From: a virus | Reading direction: 5' to 3' (one strand) | IMG/VR virus record: IMGVR_UViG_3300012954_000094 | Coordinates: 1-22,574 of that record | Length of the DNA stretch: 22,574 bases | Part shown: positions 14,480 to 21,316 of the stretch, one piece after another | Layout of the letters: each line of letters starts with the position of its first letter | Position numbering within the stretch: position 1 is the stretch's first letter | Position numbers and translations under genes: made by a program | Notes under the pieces: generated by a model | The model's database searches: none | Told to the model about the DNA's origin: nothing | What the model saw: the letters and a program-made list of their open reading frames with translations, nothing else

Positions 14480-14497
14480 TTATTCAAGACTTTTTTT

Positions 14498-15769: not shown

Positions 15770-16450
15770 ATGAAGACACTCGTTGTACTAACTGGACCTC
15801 AAGGATCGGGTAACCATCTGTGGTCAAAAATCTTCTCACTACACGAGGATGTCTTTGGGTGGAAGTCTCTGCTGAACAACTATTGGGAGGCACATAGATT
15901 CGCAGAACCTTTTGCGGAATACTGGAGAGACCCCAGTAAACTGCAAACTTTCGACTGGTCTCAATCGGAATATTACTTTACTTCTATTAGCGTCCCCCTC
16001 GGCATCAAAGAAAAAGGGACCCACTGGTGTCCAAACGTGTTGCAGTTTTGCAAGTCTGCCGAAAATATGGGGATCAAAACAAACATAGTAGTAATTGGTC
16101 GGGATCAAACGATCCTTCACAATCAACAAAAGCGGTTGAGGGGTGAACCTACATCCAGGTATTTCCTGGATCAAATGTCTAAATTCCCCAACCCAACCTT
16201 TCTCAGTTACGAACTCCTATATCTCTACAAACAGGAGTATCTAAAGCATCTGGATGTTGGAATCCCAGTTGCCTGGTATGACGAGCGTGTGAACGAGATT
16301 CTCAGGCGAGATGCTAATGAAAAATACATTAGATATGTTGAGCAAAACCCTTTGGACGACTGCAATAAAACAGGGTGTCCTGCACCACTAGATCCGTTCA
16401 CTGAAGGACCTACAGGTCCACAACCAGAAAAACCCATAAAGTGTTGTTGA
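15770..16450 (+). CDS. P-loop protein A, sulfotransferase-like
   Basis: A 226-residue protein of unknown function. It has a glycine-rich nucleotide-binding loop at residues 8-16 (TGPQGSGNH) directly after the first beta strand, followed by FSLH..V.GW.SL..NYW. An RDQ at 111-113 followed by QQKRLRGE occupies the place of the RDP...S 3'-phosphate-binding motif of sulfotransferases, so a divergent sulfotransferase or kinase fold is plausible. It is a clear paralogue of the protein at 20029-20664. Unlike that copy it ends in a Pro/Gly-rich tail closing KCC. It is the first gene of the plus-strand island, behind an early-type promoter and a strong Shine-Dalgarno. Confidence 0.85.
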   Translation: MKTLVVLTGPQGSGNHLWSKIFSLHEDVFGWKSLLNNYWEAHRFAEPFAEYWRDPSKLQTFDWSQSEYYFTSISVPLGIKEKGTHWCPNVLQFCKSAENMGIKTNIVVIGRDQTILHNQQKRLRGEPTSRYFLDQMSKFPNPTFLSYELLYLYKQEYLKHLDVGIPVAWYDERVNEILRRDANEKYIRYVEQNPLDDCNKTGCPAPLDPFTEGPTGPQPEKPIKCC

Positions 16451-16453
16451 GTC

Positions 16454-16483
16454 TTGACAGTAAGCATTTTTTACTCTTATAAT
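16454..16483 (+). promoter_or_regulatory. Sigma-70-type early promoter
   Basis: TTGACA (16454-16459) and TATAAT (16478-16483) are both consensus with an 18-base spacer, immediately after the stop of P-loop gene A. The -10 region shares the 10-mer TTATAATTAG with the promoter at 15739. It would give a leader of about 60 bases before the DUF2061 gene. Host RNA polymerase could read it without phage factors. Confidence 0.78.
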
Positions 16484-16521: not shown

Positions 16522-16529
16522 AATAAATA
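16522..16529 (+). promoter_or_regulatory. Late-promoter-like AATAAATA before the DUF2061 gene
   Basis: AATAAATA lies 22 bases before the ATG at 16552, a spacing similar to the late-type motifs on the other strand. Together with the sigma-70 promoter upstream it suggests both early and late expression. AT-richness makes a chance match possible. Confidence 0.35.
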
Positions 16530-16551: not shown

Positions 16552-16806
16552 ATGTCTTTTGCAAATCCCAAGTGGTTTGAGCGTTTTCCTCGAACCATCG
16601 CCAAGGCTGTTACCTGGCGTTCCTGGATGATGGTCACCAACTCTGTGATTGGTTGGATCGTTGCCGGTAACCCCTGGAAGGGCCTCACCATCGGTCTGAT
16701 GGCACTAGTCATCAACTCTACGCTTTATCTTCTGCACGAGCGACTCTGGAACCGTAACGACTGGAACCGCCGTCAGACGACTGCTACAGATCGAGTCGTC
16801 ATCTGA
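16552..16806 (+). CDS. DUF2061-family small membrane protein
   Basis: An 84-residue protein matching the DUF2061 pattern: RTIAKAVTWR at 14-23, GN at 39-40, and HERLWNR at 62-68. Two hydrophobic segments at about 24-39 and 44-61 should form a membrane hairpin, with basic flanks suggesting both ends on the cytoplasmic side. The molecular function of the family is unknown. It is the first gene after the consensus early promoter and is followed 62 bases later by the DctP-like gene, with no terminator between, so the two are probably co-expressed. No clear Shine-Dalgarno is visible. Confidence 0.85.
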   Translation: MSFANPKWFERFPRTIAKAVTWRSWMMVTNSVIGWIVAGNPWKGLTIGLMALVINSTLYLLHERLWNRNDWNRRQTTATDRVVI

Positions 16807-16828: not shown

Positions 16829-16836
16829 CATAAATA
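16829..16836 (+). promoter_or_regulatory. Late-promoter-like CATAAATA before the DctP-like gene
   Basis: CATAAATA matches NATAAATA, 32 bases before the ATG at 16869. AGGAG (16853-16857) follows as the ribosome-binding site. Confidence 0.4.
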
Positions 16837-16868
16837 CAAGCGTGTATAGTTTAGGAGTAAAATAAGGT

Positions 16869-17840
16869 ATGAAAAAAGTACGTTGGGTGTTAGCACACGA
16901 ACCCATTGAACTTTTTCTTCGTGCTGCCCGTAAATTTGCTGCTCTTATGGAGCAACTTGTACCGGGTGAGCTCGATGTCGAAATTCTGACCCTTTCCGAG
17001 TATTCGGAGAAGTATAATGCTGGTGAACCGGTCACCAAGCACGATCTTCTTCGTCTGATGAAGGAAGGTAAGTGTGAAATGTCCCAAATGTATACGTCCA
17101 CTCTCGGACGTGCACATAACACGGACATGCGAGTTCTCGACATGCCTTTTTTATTTCGCGACCATGAACACGCTAAGTGGGTGCTTGAGGGTGAGATTGG
17201 CAACGAACTGCTGAAAGGTCTTGACGAAGAGTCCAAAGGATTCCGCACCGTCAAGGGTCTTGCATTCACCTACTCAGGTGGATTCCGCATGATTCCTGCC
17301 AATAAAGAGATTCACAAAATTGAAGATTTCCAAGGGCTTCCTCTCCGTTGTAACAACTCTGACATTGCCAAAGAAACTCTAAAGGCAGTCGGTGCTGTGC
17401 CTGTTCCCATCGAACTGGAGCAAATCAACGAAGGCGTGCAAAGCGGCGATATTGTGGGTGGAGAATCCACCTACCCTCGTTTCTTCGGTCTGAAGCAGAA
17501 CGAGCACATGAATACGATCAACGATGCGGAGCATTCCCTGTTCCTCACCACGATCATTATTCAGAAAGAGTTCTGGCGGGATCTCTCCAAGGAACTCAGA
17601 ACCTCAATCTGTAACGCTTCCCGTGAAGCAGCACGTGCTGAACGTGTCTGGTCCGTTGAGGACATTGACATCGTGAAGAGCAAGTGTGAAGAGGAAAACA
17701 TCAATGTCGTGACTATGTCCGACGCTGAGCGTGCTCGCTTCAAGGATGCAACTGCTTACTTGTATGACAAGTTTGCTGATACCCTACCTCCTGGTATGGT
17801 CGATCGTATTCGTAAGCATGGAACTCCTGAAGAGGACTGA
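16869..17840 (+). CDS. TRAP-transporter DctP-like solute-binding protein without signal peptide
   Basis: A 323-residue protein with the DctP (TRAP-T substrate-binding) fold signature: RWVLAHEP as first strand, MPFLFRDHEHAKWVLEGEIG at 92-111, GFRMIPANKEIHKIEDFQGL at 138-157, then PLR with the conserved carboxylate-binding Arg160, AVGAVPVPIELEQINEGVQS at 173-192 and VGGESTYPRF. In bacteria these proteins bind organic acids in the periplasm for a DctQM permease. Here the first strand begins at residue 4 and an in-frame TAA two codons upstream of the ATG excludes a longer form, so no export signal is present. No permease gene is in the window. It sits after the DUF2061 gene and before a strong terminator. 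Confidence 0.9.
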   Translation: MKKVRWVLAHEPIELFLRAARKFAALMEQLVPGELDVEILTLSEYSEKYNAGEPVTKHDLLRLMKEGKCEMSQMYTSTLGRAHNTDMRVLDMPFLFRDHEHAKWVLEGEIGNELLKGLDEESKGFRTVKGLAFTYSGGFRMIPANKEIHKIEDFQGLPLRCNNSDIAKETLKAVGAVPVPIELEQINEGVQSGDIVGGESTYPRFFGLKQNEHMNTINDAEHSLFLTTIIIQKEFWRDLSKELRTSICNASREAARAERVWSVEDIDIVKSKCEEENINVVTMSDAERARFKDATAYLYDKFADTLPPGMVDRIRKHGTPEED

Positions 17841-17863: not shown

Positions 17864-17888
17864 GGCAGGCGTTATGCCTGCCTTTTTT
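17864..17888 (+). terminator. Intrinsic terminator after the DctP-like gene
   Basis: GGCAGGC (17864-17870), loop GTTAT, GCCTGCC (17876-17882), then six T. A textbook rho-independent terminator ending the early plus-strand unit 24 bases after the DctP-like stop. Confidence 0.93.
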
Positions 17889-17901: not shown

Positions 17902-19029
17902 ATGGCACTAAATCAAAGTAGTAATAGTAAATTACATAAATTTGAGTGGGACTCGATTTATGCTGCTAGACAAGTATGCTTTGCAGCAAGTGATCCTAGA
18001 CGCAAATTATATTACTATGATGAAGAAAATTATCTGAACATGTATTTTTCTACTCGCATGATTTGCCGTGCGAAGAAAATACCAAACAAGAGAAATTATA
18101 AAATCTTTTCTCCCCTTCCTGATAATTTTCAGACATCCATGTCCTTCGGGGACTGTTGTGTAGATTCTGCTACAAGGATTCTTAGTAAGTTAGATAATAG
18201 AACTCTAAACTTGATGTGGTCTGGTGGTATTGATAGTACCGTTGTGTTTTGGGCACTCATCGGTACTGGACATCCTTTCCACATTCACTTTGATAACACG
18301 GCACAGATAGAGCACCCTGAGTTGTGGGAGCGTATTCATAACAACGAATTCAAACAGATTACTCTTTGCAATATTGAAGAGGGTGCCGGGATAATTCCTC
18401 GATCTCACAACCCAGAACATGTATTTGTCATGGGCGAACCTGGTGATAATATCCATGGTGCTGGTAGATGTTTTCTATTTGACAAAGAAGAAAGAAACAA
18501 ACCATATCAATACAATGCACCAGATTGGGTAGTCGCACATCTTGAACCATCAGTCAACGTGGTTCTCAATGACCCAAACTGCAATCTAAAGCAGTGGCAC
18601 TGGGCATGGAGTTTCATGTGTAAGTATCAATACTGCTGCATTCGTTCAGTCAAGCATTTCAATTTGTGTCCCTATCCTAGGTTTGATAGAGCACCAAATA
18701 TGATGCTGTTCTATGACACTCCAAACTTCAATAGGTGGTCCATCACTAATCAAACAGAAAACAGTTCCTGGCAAGAACTTCGTGAGTATAAAATGCCTGC
18801 CAAGGACTTTATTCTTGCTTCCGGCGATTCCCAACACTATCGCGATAACAAACTAAAGGTTCCCTCATCCAACAGAGAACGTCTCAACATGTTCGATAAA
18901 CCTATGCCTGGGTTTGAACCAGATCAATATTGGATGTTAGTTATCAAGAAGACCTTTGGTGGAACAGCACCTGATATCATGTTTGATGGGAAAAACGTTA
19001 CTTCAAAAGATTGTAAAGGTCTCCCCTAA
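17902..19029 (+). CDS. Asparagine-synthetase-like PP-loop ATP pyrophosphatase
   Basis: A 375-residue member of the adenine nucleotide alpha-hydrolase superfamily. The PP-loop SGGIDST is at 107-113, preceded by the strand LNLMW. MGEPGDNIHGAG at 177-188 resembles the SGDGGDELFGGY loop of asparagine synthetase, and DTPNFNRWSI plus YKMPAKDFI fit later parts of that domain. The N-terminal about 100 residues show no Cys2 glutaminase domain, so an ammonia source or other nucleophile must come from elsewhere. The reaction is expected to be adenylation of a carboxylate followed by amide formation; substrate unknown. I chose the ATG at 17902 over a TTG inside the terminator T-run region. Its stop overlaps the convergent sulfotransferase stop. 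Confidence 0.82.
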   Translation: MALNQSSNSKLHKFEWDSIYAARQVCFAASDPRRKLYYYDEENYLNMYFSTRMICRAKKIPNKRNYKIFSPLPDNFQTSMSFGDCCVDSATRILSKLDNRTLNLMWSGGIDSTVVFWALIGTGHPFHIHFDNTAQIEHPELWERIHNNEFKQITLCNIEEGAGIIPRSHNPEHVFVMGEPGDNIHGAGRCFLFDKEERNKPYQYNAPDWVVAHLEPSVNVVLNDPNCNLKQWHWAWSFMCKYQYCCIRSVKHFNLCPYPRFDRAPNMMLFYDTPNFNRWSITNQTENSSWQELREYKMPAKDFILASGDSQHYRDNKLKVPSSNRERLNMFDKPMPGFEPDQYWMLVIKKTFGGTAPDIMFDGKNVTSKDCKGLP

Positions 19030-20030
19030 TTTGAGAATCGATCCCAGAAGTAAGAATCAATATATTCAGTGCTGTATAGTCCTGGGTGATTAGTAAAGTC
19101 CACATATAATTTACCATCAACTTTACGGTAAGTCCCCTCCTTGATATTCTCTTCACGTATACCTGTTATGGGCAGTGAGCAGGTCTCTTCATAATTTACT
19201 GGGACTCCCCATTCTTCAACATTCCACCCCTCATAGTGGTCACTCATAATATCTTTGTACTCATAGTATTGTTTTTCGGTCATATTGAACTGATCTGATG
19301 ACCATTGATCTTTTTGATATTGATATCTGACTGCTTTGTTTCCTCTATCAGGATAATATAAGTTTGGAGCAAATTCAGTCTGTCCAAATAACTCATTCAG
19401 CAGTTGTGTTTTCCCTGCCCACACCTCCTCCATGATTAGGACGTGTACAGGACACACTTTTCTTGCATTTTCAATAACTTTATGATATGGTTGTAAGTTT
19501 GAAAATTTTATTTTAGCAACAGAGTAAATATCACTAAACTGTTTTACATCATCAAGTATCTTCGAGTAATTATTCCATCCATAATTCAACCAAGACCATG
19601 CTCTCCGTACAGGATCTCTACATATTATGAGAGCACTAACGTCAAATTCTTTGCTGAGTGCTCTGAGTAACCGCTGTGTAAAATCAGCGTCTAGTCTATA
19701 GTTACTGTTAGACCAATCAACTAATACGTCTCTACCATATCCCCTACTATCCCACAAATTTTTGTAGTAATCAACATATTTCTGTATAGACCAGTTACTA
19801 AAATCTGGGAAAGATGTTACAATTTCTCCAGAGTCAGAACCAAATTTCTGATACCAAAAAATCTTTGCTTTACATTTCTCTAGTTTCTTCTCATCACCAA
19901 GGTGTTGAGTAAAGTCTGCCAAATGATGTTCTTTTGCAACTCCACTCGTCACTCTATGACGAATCATTTTATATAATGGACTCGACGCTGAAAACGCTGT
20001 TCCTAAAAAAAATATAAATTTGGGTTTCAT
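19026..20030 (-). CDS. Sulfotransferase-family protein
   Basis: A 334-residue protein with the layout of PAPS-dependent sulfotransferases. The first strand and loop, FIFFLGTAFSASSPLYKM at 5-22, stand where the 5'-phosphosulfate loop lies, though it is not a classical GxxRSGT. The 3'-phosphate-binding motif is clear at 138-147, RDPVRRAWSW. A C-terminal part rich in Tyr, Trp and Asn is consistent with acceptor binding. The likely acceptor is a glycan or small molecule, not determinable here. The ATG at 20030 shares two bases with the ATG of the divergent gene B. The gene is AT-rich: 19501-19560 has 15 G/C in 60. Confidence 0.82.
   Translation of the reverse strand: MKPKFIFFLGTAFSASSPLYKMIRHRVTSGVAKEHHLADFTQHLGDEKKLEKCKAKIFWYQKFGSDSGEIVTSFPDFSNWSIQKYVDYYKNLWDSRGYGRDVLVDWSNSNYRLDADFTQRLLRALSKEFDVSALIICRDPVRRAWSWLNYGWNNYSKILDDVKQFSDIYSVAKIKFSNLQPYHKVIENARKVCPVHVLIMEEVWAGKTQLLNELFGQTEFAPNLYYPDRGNKAVRYQYQKDQWSSDQFNMTEKQYYEYKDIMSDHYEGWNVEEWGVPVNYEETCSLPITGIREENIKEGTYRKVDGKLYVDFTNHPGLYSTEYIDSYFWDRFSN
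20013..20020 (+). promoter_or_regulatory. TATAAATT element just before P-loop gene B
   Basis: TATAAATT differs from the late consensus TATAAATA at the last base and lies 8 bases before the ATG at 20029. Transcription from it would give a leaderless or nearly leaderless message, so it may be a chance match in AT-rich coding sequence of the opposite gene. Confidence 0.25.
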
Positions 20031-20664
20031 GAAAAGACTTCTTATCACCACTGGACCACAGGGGTCAGGAAATCATTTATTAGCTCGTGTATTTAGTCTG
20101 CACTCTGCCGTTGTGGGGTGGGAATCGCTGAAAACTAATTACTGGGTTCCTAGTGATCAAGAACCCTTTGCCAAATACTGGGTATATCCTGACCAACTAG
20201 AGTTTCCTGATGGTGAGTTCTTTCTCGCTAACGTCAGTGTCCCTTTCTTCTACGATGGTGTACGGCAGACACCAAAGATCGTAGAGGTGTGCCATCAGGC
20301 AATGCACATGGGGTATGAACCTGTCGTTGCAATTATCTGTAGAGATCAGAATATCAACGCTGTGCAACAACAAAGGGTCGGAGGGGAAGTGACCCTACCG
20401 ACCGCTAAGGAGTATTACAGATTGCTGTTAGATGATCCTTATATTGAAACTCACTTCCTATCCCATGAATCATTCTTTATGTGGAAAGAAGATTATATCA
20501 AATACATTGGGCACCAACTAAAGTTCCCTGTAACGACCGAAGGCATCGACCAGTTCATAACCGGCGATGCCAACGGAAAGTATGTAAGTCCCGTCGAAGA
20601 CCATTGGTTAGACGAGACTATTAGAGAAGGTCGTCAGACCTTCAAACAACGGCGAGGGGAGTAG
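20029..20664 (+). CDS. P-loop protein B, paralogue of gene A
   Basis: A 211-residue protein. It shares with gene A the start MK.L...TGPQGSGNHL, FSLH..V.GW.SL..NYW, EPFA.YW..P..L, an SVP, RDQ at 105-107, QQ.R.GGE.T-type sequence, LSHE/LSYE and DAN.KY, in the same order. The phosphate-binding loop is at residues 8-16. Function is unknown; a sulfotransferase- or kinase-like P-loop fold is likely. The ATG at 20029 gives the same N-terminus as gene A; a TTG at 20020 would add three residues. No Shine-Dalgarno is visible. Its last 23 bases overlap the end of the convergent ferritin-like gene. Confidence 0.85.
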   Translation: MKRLLITTGPQGSGNHLLARVFSLHSAVVGWESLKTNYWVPSDQEPFAKYWVYPDQLEFPDGEFFLANVSVPFFYDGVRQTPKIVEVCHQAMHMGYEPVVAIICRDQNINAVQQQRVGGEVTLPTAKEYYRLLLDDPYIETHFLSHESFFMWKEDYIKYIGHQLKFPVTTEGIDQFITGDANGKYVSPVEDHWLDETIREGRQTFKQRRGE

Positions 20665-21316
20665 AGGTGTTCTGACGGGAGATCTCCAGCAGGTCTTCAC
20701 GCATACGCTCAACCAGTGAGAGAACGCGGTCCTGCAGATCAGCACTACCTTCCACCAGGCGACTCAGGGTGCGACCACCCAGGTTGCTGTGGAATCCTTC
20801 ATCCTTAGCGATGGAGGCATAACGTGAAGAGATGAACTTGTCGTCAACGCACTCAGCCATTTCGTTCCAGACTGCTTCTGCACGACCTTCAGCAACGAGC
20901 TGATAGGCAGCGAGGGCAGCGGGATCTTCAGAAGCTTCATACTTCTCAAGCAGGGAAGCACCCTTTGCCTGAGGAGCGTCAGCTTCAGCAGCGAAAGCAG
21001 CAGCAACATCCAGTTCTTCACCGGTGATGTGCTCGATGACTTCCTTGACCATGCGGAAGTGCTTTGCTTCGTCGAGTGCTTGCTTGCTCAGCAGTTCCAG
21101 GTCACGCACGTCGGTGCTGGGGTCTGCAGAAGCAACTTGACCTGCGATGGCGTACATGTTCTGTGCTTCGTTGACCATACGGCCACGGAAGTGATCTACC
21201 AGGTACTCGTCGCTAGGGGATGAAGCGAAGAAACGACGGACGTTGCTACGGGAAGCCTCAAAAAGCTCCCTATTACCTTCCTTGATTTTCTTTACGAAAT
21301 CGGTTCCAGAAAGCAT
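20642..21316 (-). CDS. Ferritin-like di-iron protein
   Basis: A 224-residue, almost wholly helical protein with the spacing of a four-helix di-iron carboxylate centre: Glu50 (RMVNEAQ), Glu83-x-x-His86 (DEAKH), Glu143 or Glu147 (AEGRAEAVW) and Glu173-x-x-His176 (DEGFH). This E/ExxH/E/ExxH pattern is shared by ferritin-like oxidases and oxygenases, including the PaaA-like class. Substrate is unknown; iron storage, peroxide removal or an oxygenation step are all possible. I chose the ATG at 21316 because AAGGA stands about 9 bases upstream; in-frame starts to 21430 would run into the methyltransferase gene. GC content and codon use look like the structural genes rather than its AT-rich neighbours. 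Confidence 0.85.
   Translation of the reverse strand: MLSGTDFVKKIKEGNRELFEASRSNVRRFFASSPSDEYLVDHFRGRMVNEAQNMYAIAGQVASADPSTDVRDLELLSKQALDEAKHFRMVKEVIEHITGEELDVAAAFAAEADAPQAKGASLLEKYEASEDPAALAAYQLVAEGRAEAVWNEMAECVDDKFISSRYASIAKDEGFHSNLGGRTLSRLVEGSADLQDRVLSLVERMREDLLEISRQNTSTPLAVV

Follow-up and report, generated by a model that had tools for sequence, protein, structure and literature searches.

The dctP gene of a T4-like phage genome fragment encodes a protein that is a DctP solute-binding protein by fold, yet is not a part of a TRAP transporter. The protein begins without a signal peptide and is likely cytoplasmic. It belongs to a leaderless family that is clearly under purifying selection, is nearly absent from sequenced cells and deposited phages, and, as judged by alignment, very likely keeps the anion-binding site of the TRAP binding proteins. 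The gene is commonly, not universally, linked to a gene for a PP-loop ATP-pyrophosphatase. The most economical reading, which we put forward tentatively, is that the dctP product may be a cytosolic protein that carries a carboxylate-type ligand to the PP-loop enzyme.

The dctP gene and its genomic setting

The analysed stretch of DNA (the window) is an IMG/VR virus record of 22,574 bases. Between base 3 and about base 14,480, genes of a T4-like structural block lie on the minus strand; they include those for the major head protein, head protease, portal, tail tube, tail sheath, large terminase, sheath stabiliser and neck proteins. The best deposited match of the portal protein is from Marine virus AG-345-D19 (82%), followed by Synechococcus phages (~66%); the window phage is therefore related to cyanomyoviruses. 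The SAG record AG-345-D19 begins too late to span the dctP site. The dctP gene lies on the plus strand just past the structural block, between a structural-region gene and a small gene island. The dctP module is flanked by the genes at 19026-20051 (minus strand), 15770-16450 (plus) and 20020-20664 (plus); two of their products are mutual paralogues, and the first is sulfotransferase-like, as judged by eye only. The product of 20645-21313 (minus) has a weak PaaA_PaaC match below the cut-off and is possibly ferritin-like.

The dctP gene (16869..17840, plus strand) has an ATG start and encodes 323 amino acids. Its product matches the DctP family PF03480 with 157.5 bits (cut-off 23.4, E 6e-46), scores over the cut-off of NF037995 and under that of NCBIfam TIGR00787 (130.1 bits, cut-off 175.05), and matches many solved TRAP solute-binding proteins. 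With a mean pLDDT of 72, the AlphaFold model reaches medium confidence. Its best PDB matches are TRAP binding proteins with E down to 1.7e-19, and Foldseek gives probability 1.0 and TM of 0.61-0.73 by query length for this medium-confidence model. The DctP fold claimed in the preliminary description is thus borne out.

The product starts at the first strand of the fold. A probable ribosome-binding site, AGGAG, is located at 16853..16857 (plus), and an in-frame stop TAA at 16863..16865 (plus), two codons before the start, as had been described. In 141 of 143 related loci a methionine stands 5-8 residues ahead of the WVLAH motif; for the first 52 loci the start position was aligned at the level of single residues, and the presence or absence of an export signal in the 143 loci was judged from the open frame and hydropathy. 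The two exceptions are Bacteriovorax loci with signal-like N-termini. Homologues with a conserved upstream signal had been named in advance as the observation that would speak against a leaderless, cytoplasmic protein: no export signal was found in the phage homologues, and among the relatives only the cellular ones from Bacteriovorax carry one. Pairwise dN/dS in the family is 0.06-0.19 wherever computable. The start shared by 141 of the 143 loci, together with these values, excludes chance and sequencing error, and a start lost by such an error is ruled out by the relatives with the same start.

No DctM or DctQ gene was found in the window, a 22.6-kb fragment of a virus genome, which agrees with the earlier statement that a DctQM permease is absent from it. 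Among 18 phage contigs searched, 17 have no DctM match, and the single DctM is part of a separate TAXI-type system. A TRAP uptake system was rejected on these grounds, and since both an export signal and a permease are missing, the dctP product is not assigned to a TRAP transporter.

Ligand pocket and distribution of the family

In TRAP binding proteins the ligand carboxylate is held by two arginines and one asparagine, and a histidine and a glutamate support one of the two arginines; the reference pocket residues in 4P47/OaIseP are R152, R173 and N213 (PMC11668362). In the alignment, R140 and R160 of the window protein correspond to the two arginines of the pocket, and E199 and H222 to the supporting pair. 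By analogy with 4P47/OaIseP, R140 (codon 17286..17288, plus strand) would be the first and R160 (codon 17346..17348, plus strand) the second anion-binding arginine. The earlier designation of R160 as a conserved substrate-binding residue is supported by its alignment with the carboxylate-binding arginine of TRAP binding proteins. All 19 diverse family members compared have R140, E199 and H222; 18 of them also have R160, the exception being a divergent paralogue, L152. The position of the usual pocket asparagine is occupied by Ser200 in the window protein, so the ligand is not readable from known TRAP complexes.

The family was found in 53 loci at 68-95% identity in a single-query scan of viral contigs and in 59 loci with a freshwater query; an alignment-based scan of viral contigs yielded 245 candidate relatives. 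The scan of prokaryote genomes gave five matches among 84,980. It was built on two short patterns, and cellular members are therefore possibly undercounted. Two of the cellular relatives, both in MAGs, are leaderless, and the flanks of both look bacterial; the explanation of the five matches as phage contigs in bins is not borne out for these two. In 50,697 deposited phage records the leaderless family has no match (a portal control found 2,527 records), and neither do the two PP-loop proteins tried or the DUF2061 protein described below. The DctP matches among deposited phages do not exceed 32% identity and resemble ordinary DctP. PHROG 31178 was matched and set aside, as it looks like an ordinary DctP with a longer N-terminus. 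Two fragments labelled as DctP are present in a viral-protein structure library, with 53% and 37% identity. No paper on a leaderless phage DctP family was found in literature searches, which returned mostly the nucleotide dCTP.

The link to cyanophages drawn in the preliminary description fails for deposited genomes: no deposited cyanophage carries the family, which occurs in freshwater, polar and marine phages and in two bacterial MAGs. Six of the large contigs encode a Gp23-type capsid. The psbA gene is present in 4 of 20 records, so some carriers are cyanophages. In the tree, the whole family is split from ordinary DctP with support of 100/100, and the Bacteriovorax sequence sits on a long branch inside a clade otherwise without signals. 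The Bacteriovorax flanks include ABC-transporter and MBOAT genes; in one such locus (L153:4198-11668), which resembles a Dlt-like system, genes for an AMP-binding protein, a carrier protein, MBOAT and an NMT1-type ABC transporter lie beside the signal-bearing DctP.

Several of the phage contigs also carry transport genes of other types. Near their terminase and sheath genes, polar-marine phage contigs (L042:4319-5662, minus; L029:9602-10567, minus) encode a permease of the DctM type and a TAXI binding protein whose N-terminus is apparently a signal sequence. On a large freshwater phage contig (L152:756-3728, minus; L152:5434-6537, plus), genes for a TctA permease and for two small proteins whose starts are signal-like adjoin a third, divergent leaderless DctP paralogue, the one without R160. 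A TctC-like protein with a signal-like start is often encoded just upstream of the leaderless DctP (L101:5028-5918, L109, L100, L107, L117).

The phage family thus has the fold of the DctP-type TRAP binding proteins (PF03480; SiaP, IseP and uronate-binding proteins) and keeps both arginines and the Glu/His network. It differs from them in having no signal peptide, usually no permease, serine in place of the pocket asparagine, and a location with PP-loop and DUF2061 genes. The TctC/Bug-like and TAXI proteins of related phages are organic-acid binding, like the leaderless DctP, but those seen have apparent signal starts, and the TAXI and TctA cases are near permeases. Cyanophages carry PstS and other auxiliary metabolic genes. 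PstS, a transport component, is likewise a phage-borne solute-binding protein, but it is exported, unlike the leaderless DctP.

PP-loop and DUF2061 neighbours and predicted regulation

The dctP gene is followed by a gene for a PP-loop ATP-pyrophosphatase of 375 amino acids (17902..19029, plus strand), assigned from alignment and model, with SGGIDS at residues 107-112. The motif SGGxDS is invariant in 30 aligned sequences. Like the asparagine synthetase and beta-lactam synthetase superfamily, the protein has this motif, the following GD-G motif and the C-terminal lysines. Its model (pLDDT 86.8) has asparagine synthetase as the best PDB match (E 2.3e-4), and its nearest folds are asparagine, beta-lactam and carbapenam synthetases, with only partial similarity (TM about 0.36). 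In contrast to asparagine synthetase, it scores below PF00733 and has no recognisable N-terminal glutaminase domain among its Pfam matches. Upstream of dctP, a gene at 16552..16806 (plus strand) encodes a small membrane protein of the DUF2061 family (PF09834, E 4e-13). No recognised signalling domain was found in either partner with Pfam.

Of 144 loci, 86 have a PP-loop profile match no more than 2.5 kb from dctP, 83 have DUF2061 within 1.5 kb, and 72 have both. Because the 144 loci were picked by dctP and are interrelated, counting by cluster is fairer: of 35 clusters at 90% identity, 17 have PP-loop genes, 13 DUF2061 and 10 both. The PP-loop share is lower by 60%- and 75%-identity clusters (2/7 and 7/13, respectively), and the profile may miss divergent PP-loops. 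A universal link was dropped because several clades lack a detected PP-loop neighbour; none was detected in the L102, L104 and L249 clusters, nor in L269 at the profile threshold.

The content of individual genomes varies as well. The contigs G008 and G011 (119 and 133 kb) yielded only two PP-loop genes, both directly beside dctP, and in G016 one of four PP-loop genes adjoins it. In G025 and G026 the PP-loop genes are far from dctP, and divergent dctP paralogues have no PP-loop neighbour. In a reciprocal PP-loop scan, all 21 viral loci at 41-95% identity to the window protein carry dctP, among the matches listed; the next matches listed fall to 33% identity and are mostly without dctP. DctP is absent within 3 kb from 55 of the 79 PP-loop loci listed, many of which are distant homologues at 24-33%. 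A PP-loop neighbour of dctP was also found in the two bacterial MAGs, and the pairing recurs in a distant phage lineage (L296, L297, L303), in two cases with DUF2061 too. The PP-loop gene is downstream of dctP in some lineages and upstream in others, and the strand is nearly always kept, which suggests repeated selection. The two genes overlap in the polar-marine lineage and are separated by 8-9 nt in freshwater lineages.

Other families were observed beside PP-loop genes. A 269-aa family without a Pfam match adjoins the PP-loop gene in a bacterial MAG (L144:8518-10556, plus) and lies beside a PP-loop gene in several freshwater phages. In another phage, a sodium:solute symporter match (PF00474; L300:4100-5413, plus) is next to a distant PP-loop gene; a similar protein in L298 has no Pfam match.

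ATAAATA is the core of the T4 late promoter. A scan of the window for this motif found seven copies against 1.5 expected, with only two on the plus strand: one (CATAAATA, 16829..16836) 40 nt before dctP and the other (16522..16529) 30 bases before the DUF2061 gene. Of 58 main-clade loci, 51 have the late-promoter motif in the 120 nt that precede dctP; in the few examples per clade with listed positions, the distance is mostly 31-45 nt. From this upstream motif, dctP is predicted to be a T4-like late gene. A perfect sigma-70 consensus promoter (12/12 matches; 16454..16483, plus) is located upstream of the DUF2061 gene; of 52 main-clade loci, only 3 have such a promoter and 7 a TTGAC variant, all belonging to the closest sublineage. 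An intrinsic terminator hairpin is predicted between dctP and the PP-loop gene (17864..17888, plus), and a hairpin of different sequence is found at the same place in the main marine lineages. Because of this terminator, expression of the two genes in the window would be at least uncoupled.

Possible roles of the leaderless DctP

We propose that, late in infection, the dctP product could bind a small carboxylate or a similar anion in the cytoplasm and present it to the PP-loop enzyme. Asparagine-synthetase-type enzymes adenylate carboxylates. The PP-loop enzyme would adenylate the ligand and join it to an amine or another acceptor, and the conjugation product could modify a virion or host molecule, perhaps during assembly; DUF2061 may place the carrier-enzyme complex at the membrane. 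This carrier role is drawn from guilt by association and the conserved pocket residues. The leaderless start, the kept pocket, the recurrent PP-loop and DUF2061 neighbours and the reciprocal scan are consistent with it. The AMP-binding, acyl-carrier and MBOAT neighbours, the L300 symporter and the TctA and TAXI systems of carriers weakly fit organic-acid handling. Counted against it are the clades without a PP-loop neighbour, the distant PP-loops without DctP, the terminator, Ser200, and the L152 paralogue without R160. A more specific version, possible but doubtful, is that a solute-binding protein has come to serve a cytosolic PP-loop ligase, anchored by DUF2061, as its substrate-loading subunit; such a two-component enzyme would make an amide or conjugate late in infection.

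The roles named in the preliminary description (sequestration, sensing, a virion part) remain candidates; it had overlooked the strongest clue, the DUF2061 and PP-loop partners. An unlikely alternative to the carrier is a cytosolic sponge that would sequester a host metabolite or an immune signal molecule, the PP-loop gene then being an independent member of the island. Sequestration would suit a ligand-binding fold that has an intact predicted anion site and no transporter, and in the window the late-promoter motif of dctP and the terminator could let the sponge be made in excess of the enzyme. The PP-loop and DUF2061 partners are not needed by a sponge, yet they recur, and two bacteria carry the same dctP-PP-loop pair. 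The late-promoter motifs speak against an early anti-defence role, though the sublineage of the window has the sigma-70 promoter.

The late-promoter motifs, and the location of dctP amid genes for the head, neck and tail of T4-like phages, are compatible with a virion protein, e.g. a decoration or injected protein that uses the DctP fold in the particle. We consider this quite unlikely: the position of dctP varies between genomes with no fixed gene order, the pocket residues, which a purely structural role does not require, are among the most conserved, and one copy lies in a region of a bacterial chromosome. Solute-binding folds serve as sensors elsewhere, and a small membrane protein, DUF2061, often adjoins dctP, so that a cytosolic sensor whose ligand binding regulates DUF2061 or the PP-loop enzyme could be imagined; it is made improbable by the lack of a recognised signalling domain in these partners.

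Some relatives occur in phages that encode a TAXI-type TRAP system or a TctA permease, and a role in uptake might be considered: the protein would get to the periplasm by a non-Sec route or upon lysis, or would cooperate with a permease of the phage or the host. Unlike the dctP product, the binding proteins encoded beside the permeases of those phages have apparent signal sequences at their start; with DctM missing from nearly all contigs searched, uptake is highly improbable. An artefact, i.e. a truncated or misassembled gene, might be suspected as ordinary DctP proteins carry a signal peptide, and is refuted by the loci from many metagenomes with the same start, upstream stops and purifying selection.

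Solute-binding proteins are usually regarded as parts of importers or as extracellular sensors. With automatic labels, the leaderless DctP risks being annotated as a TRAP transporter receptor, as two phage DctP fragments already are, and counted as a nutrient uptake gene. A leaderless DctP with a kept anion site that travels with an ATP-pyrophosphatase in many aquatic T4-like phages points to a new chemistry of phage infection.
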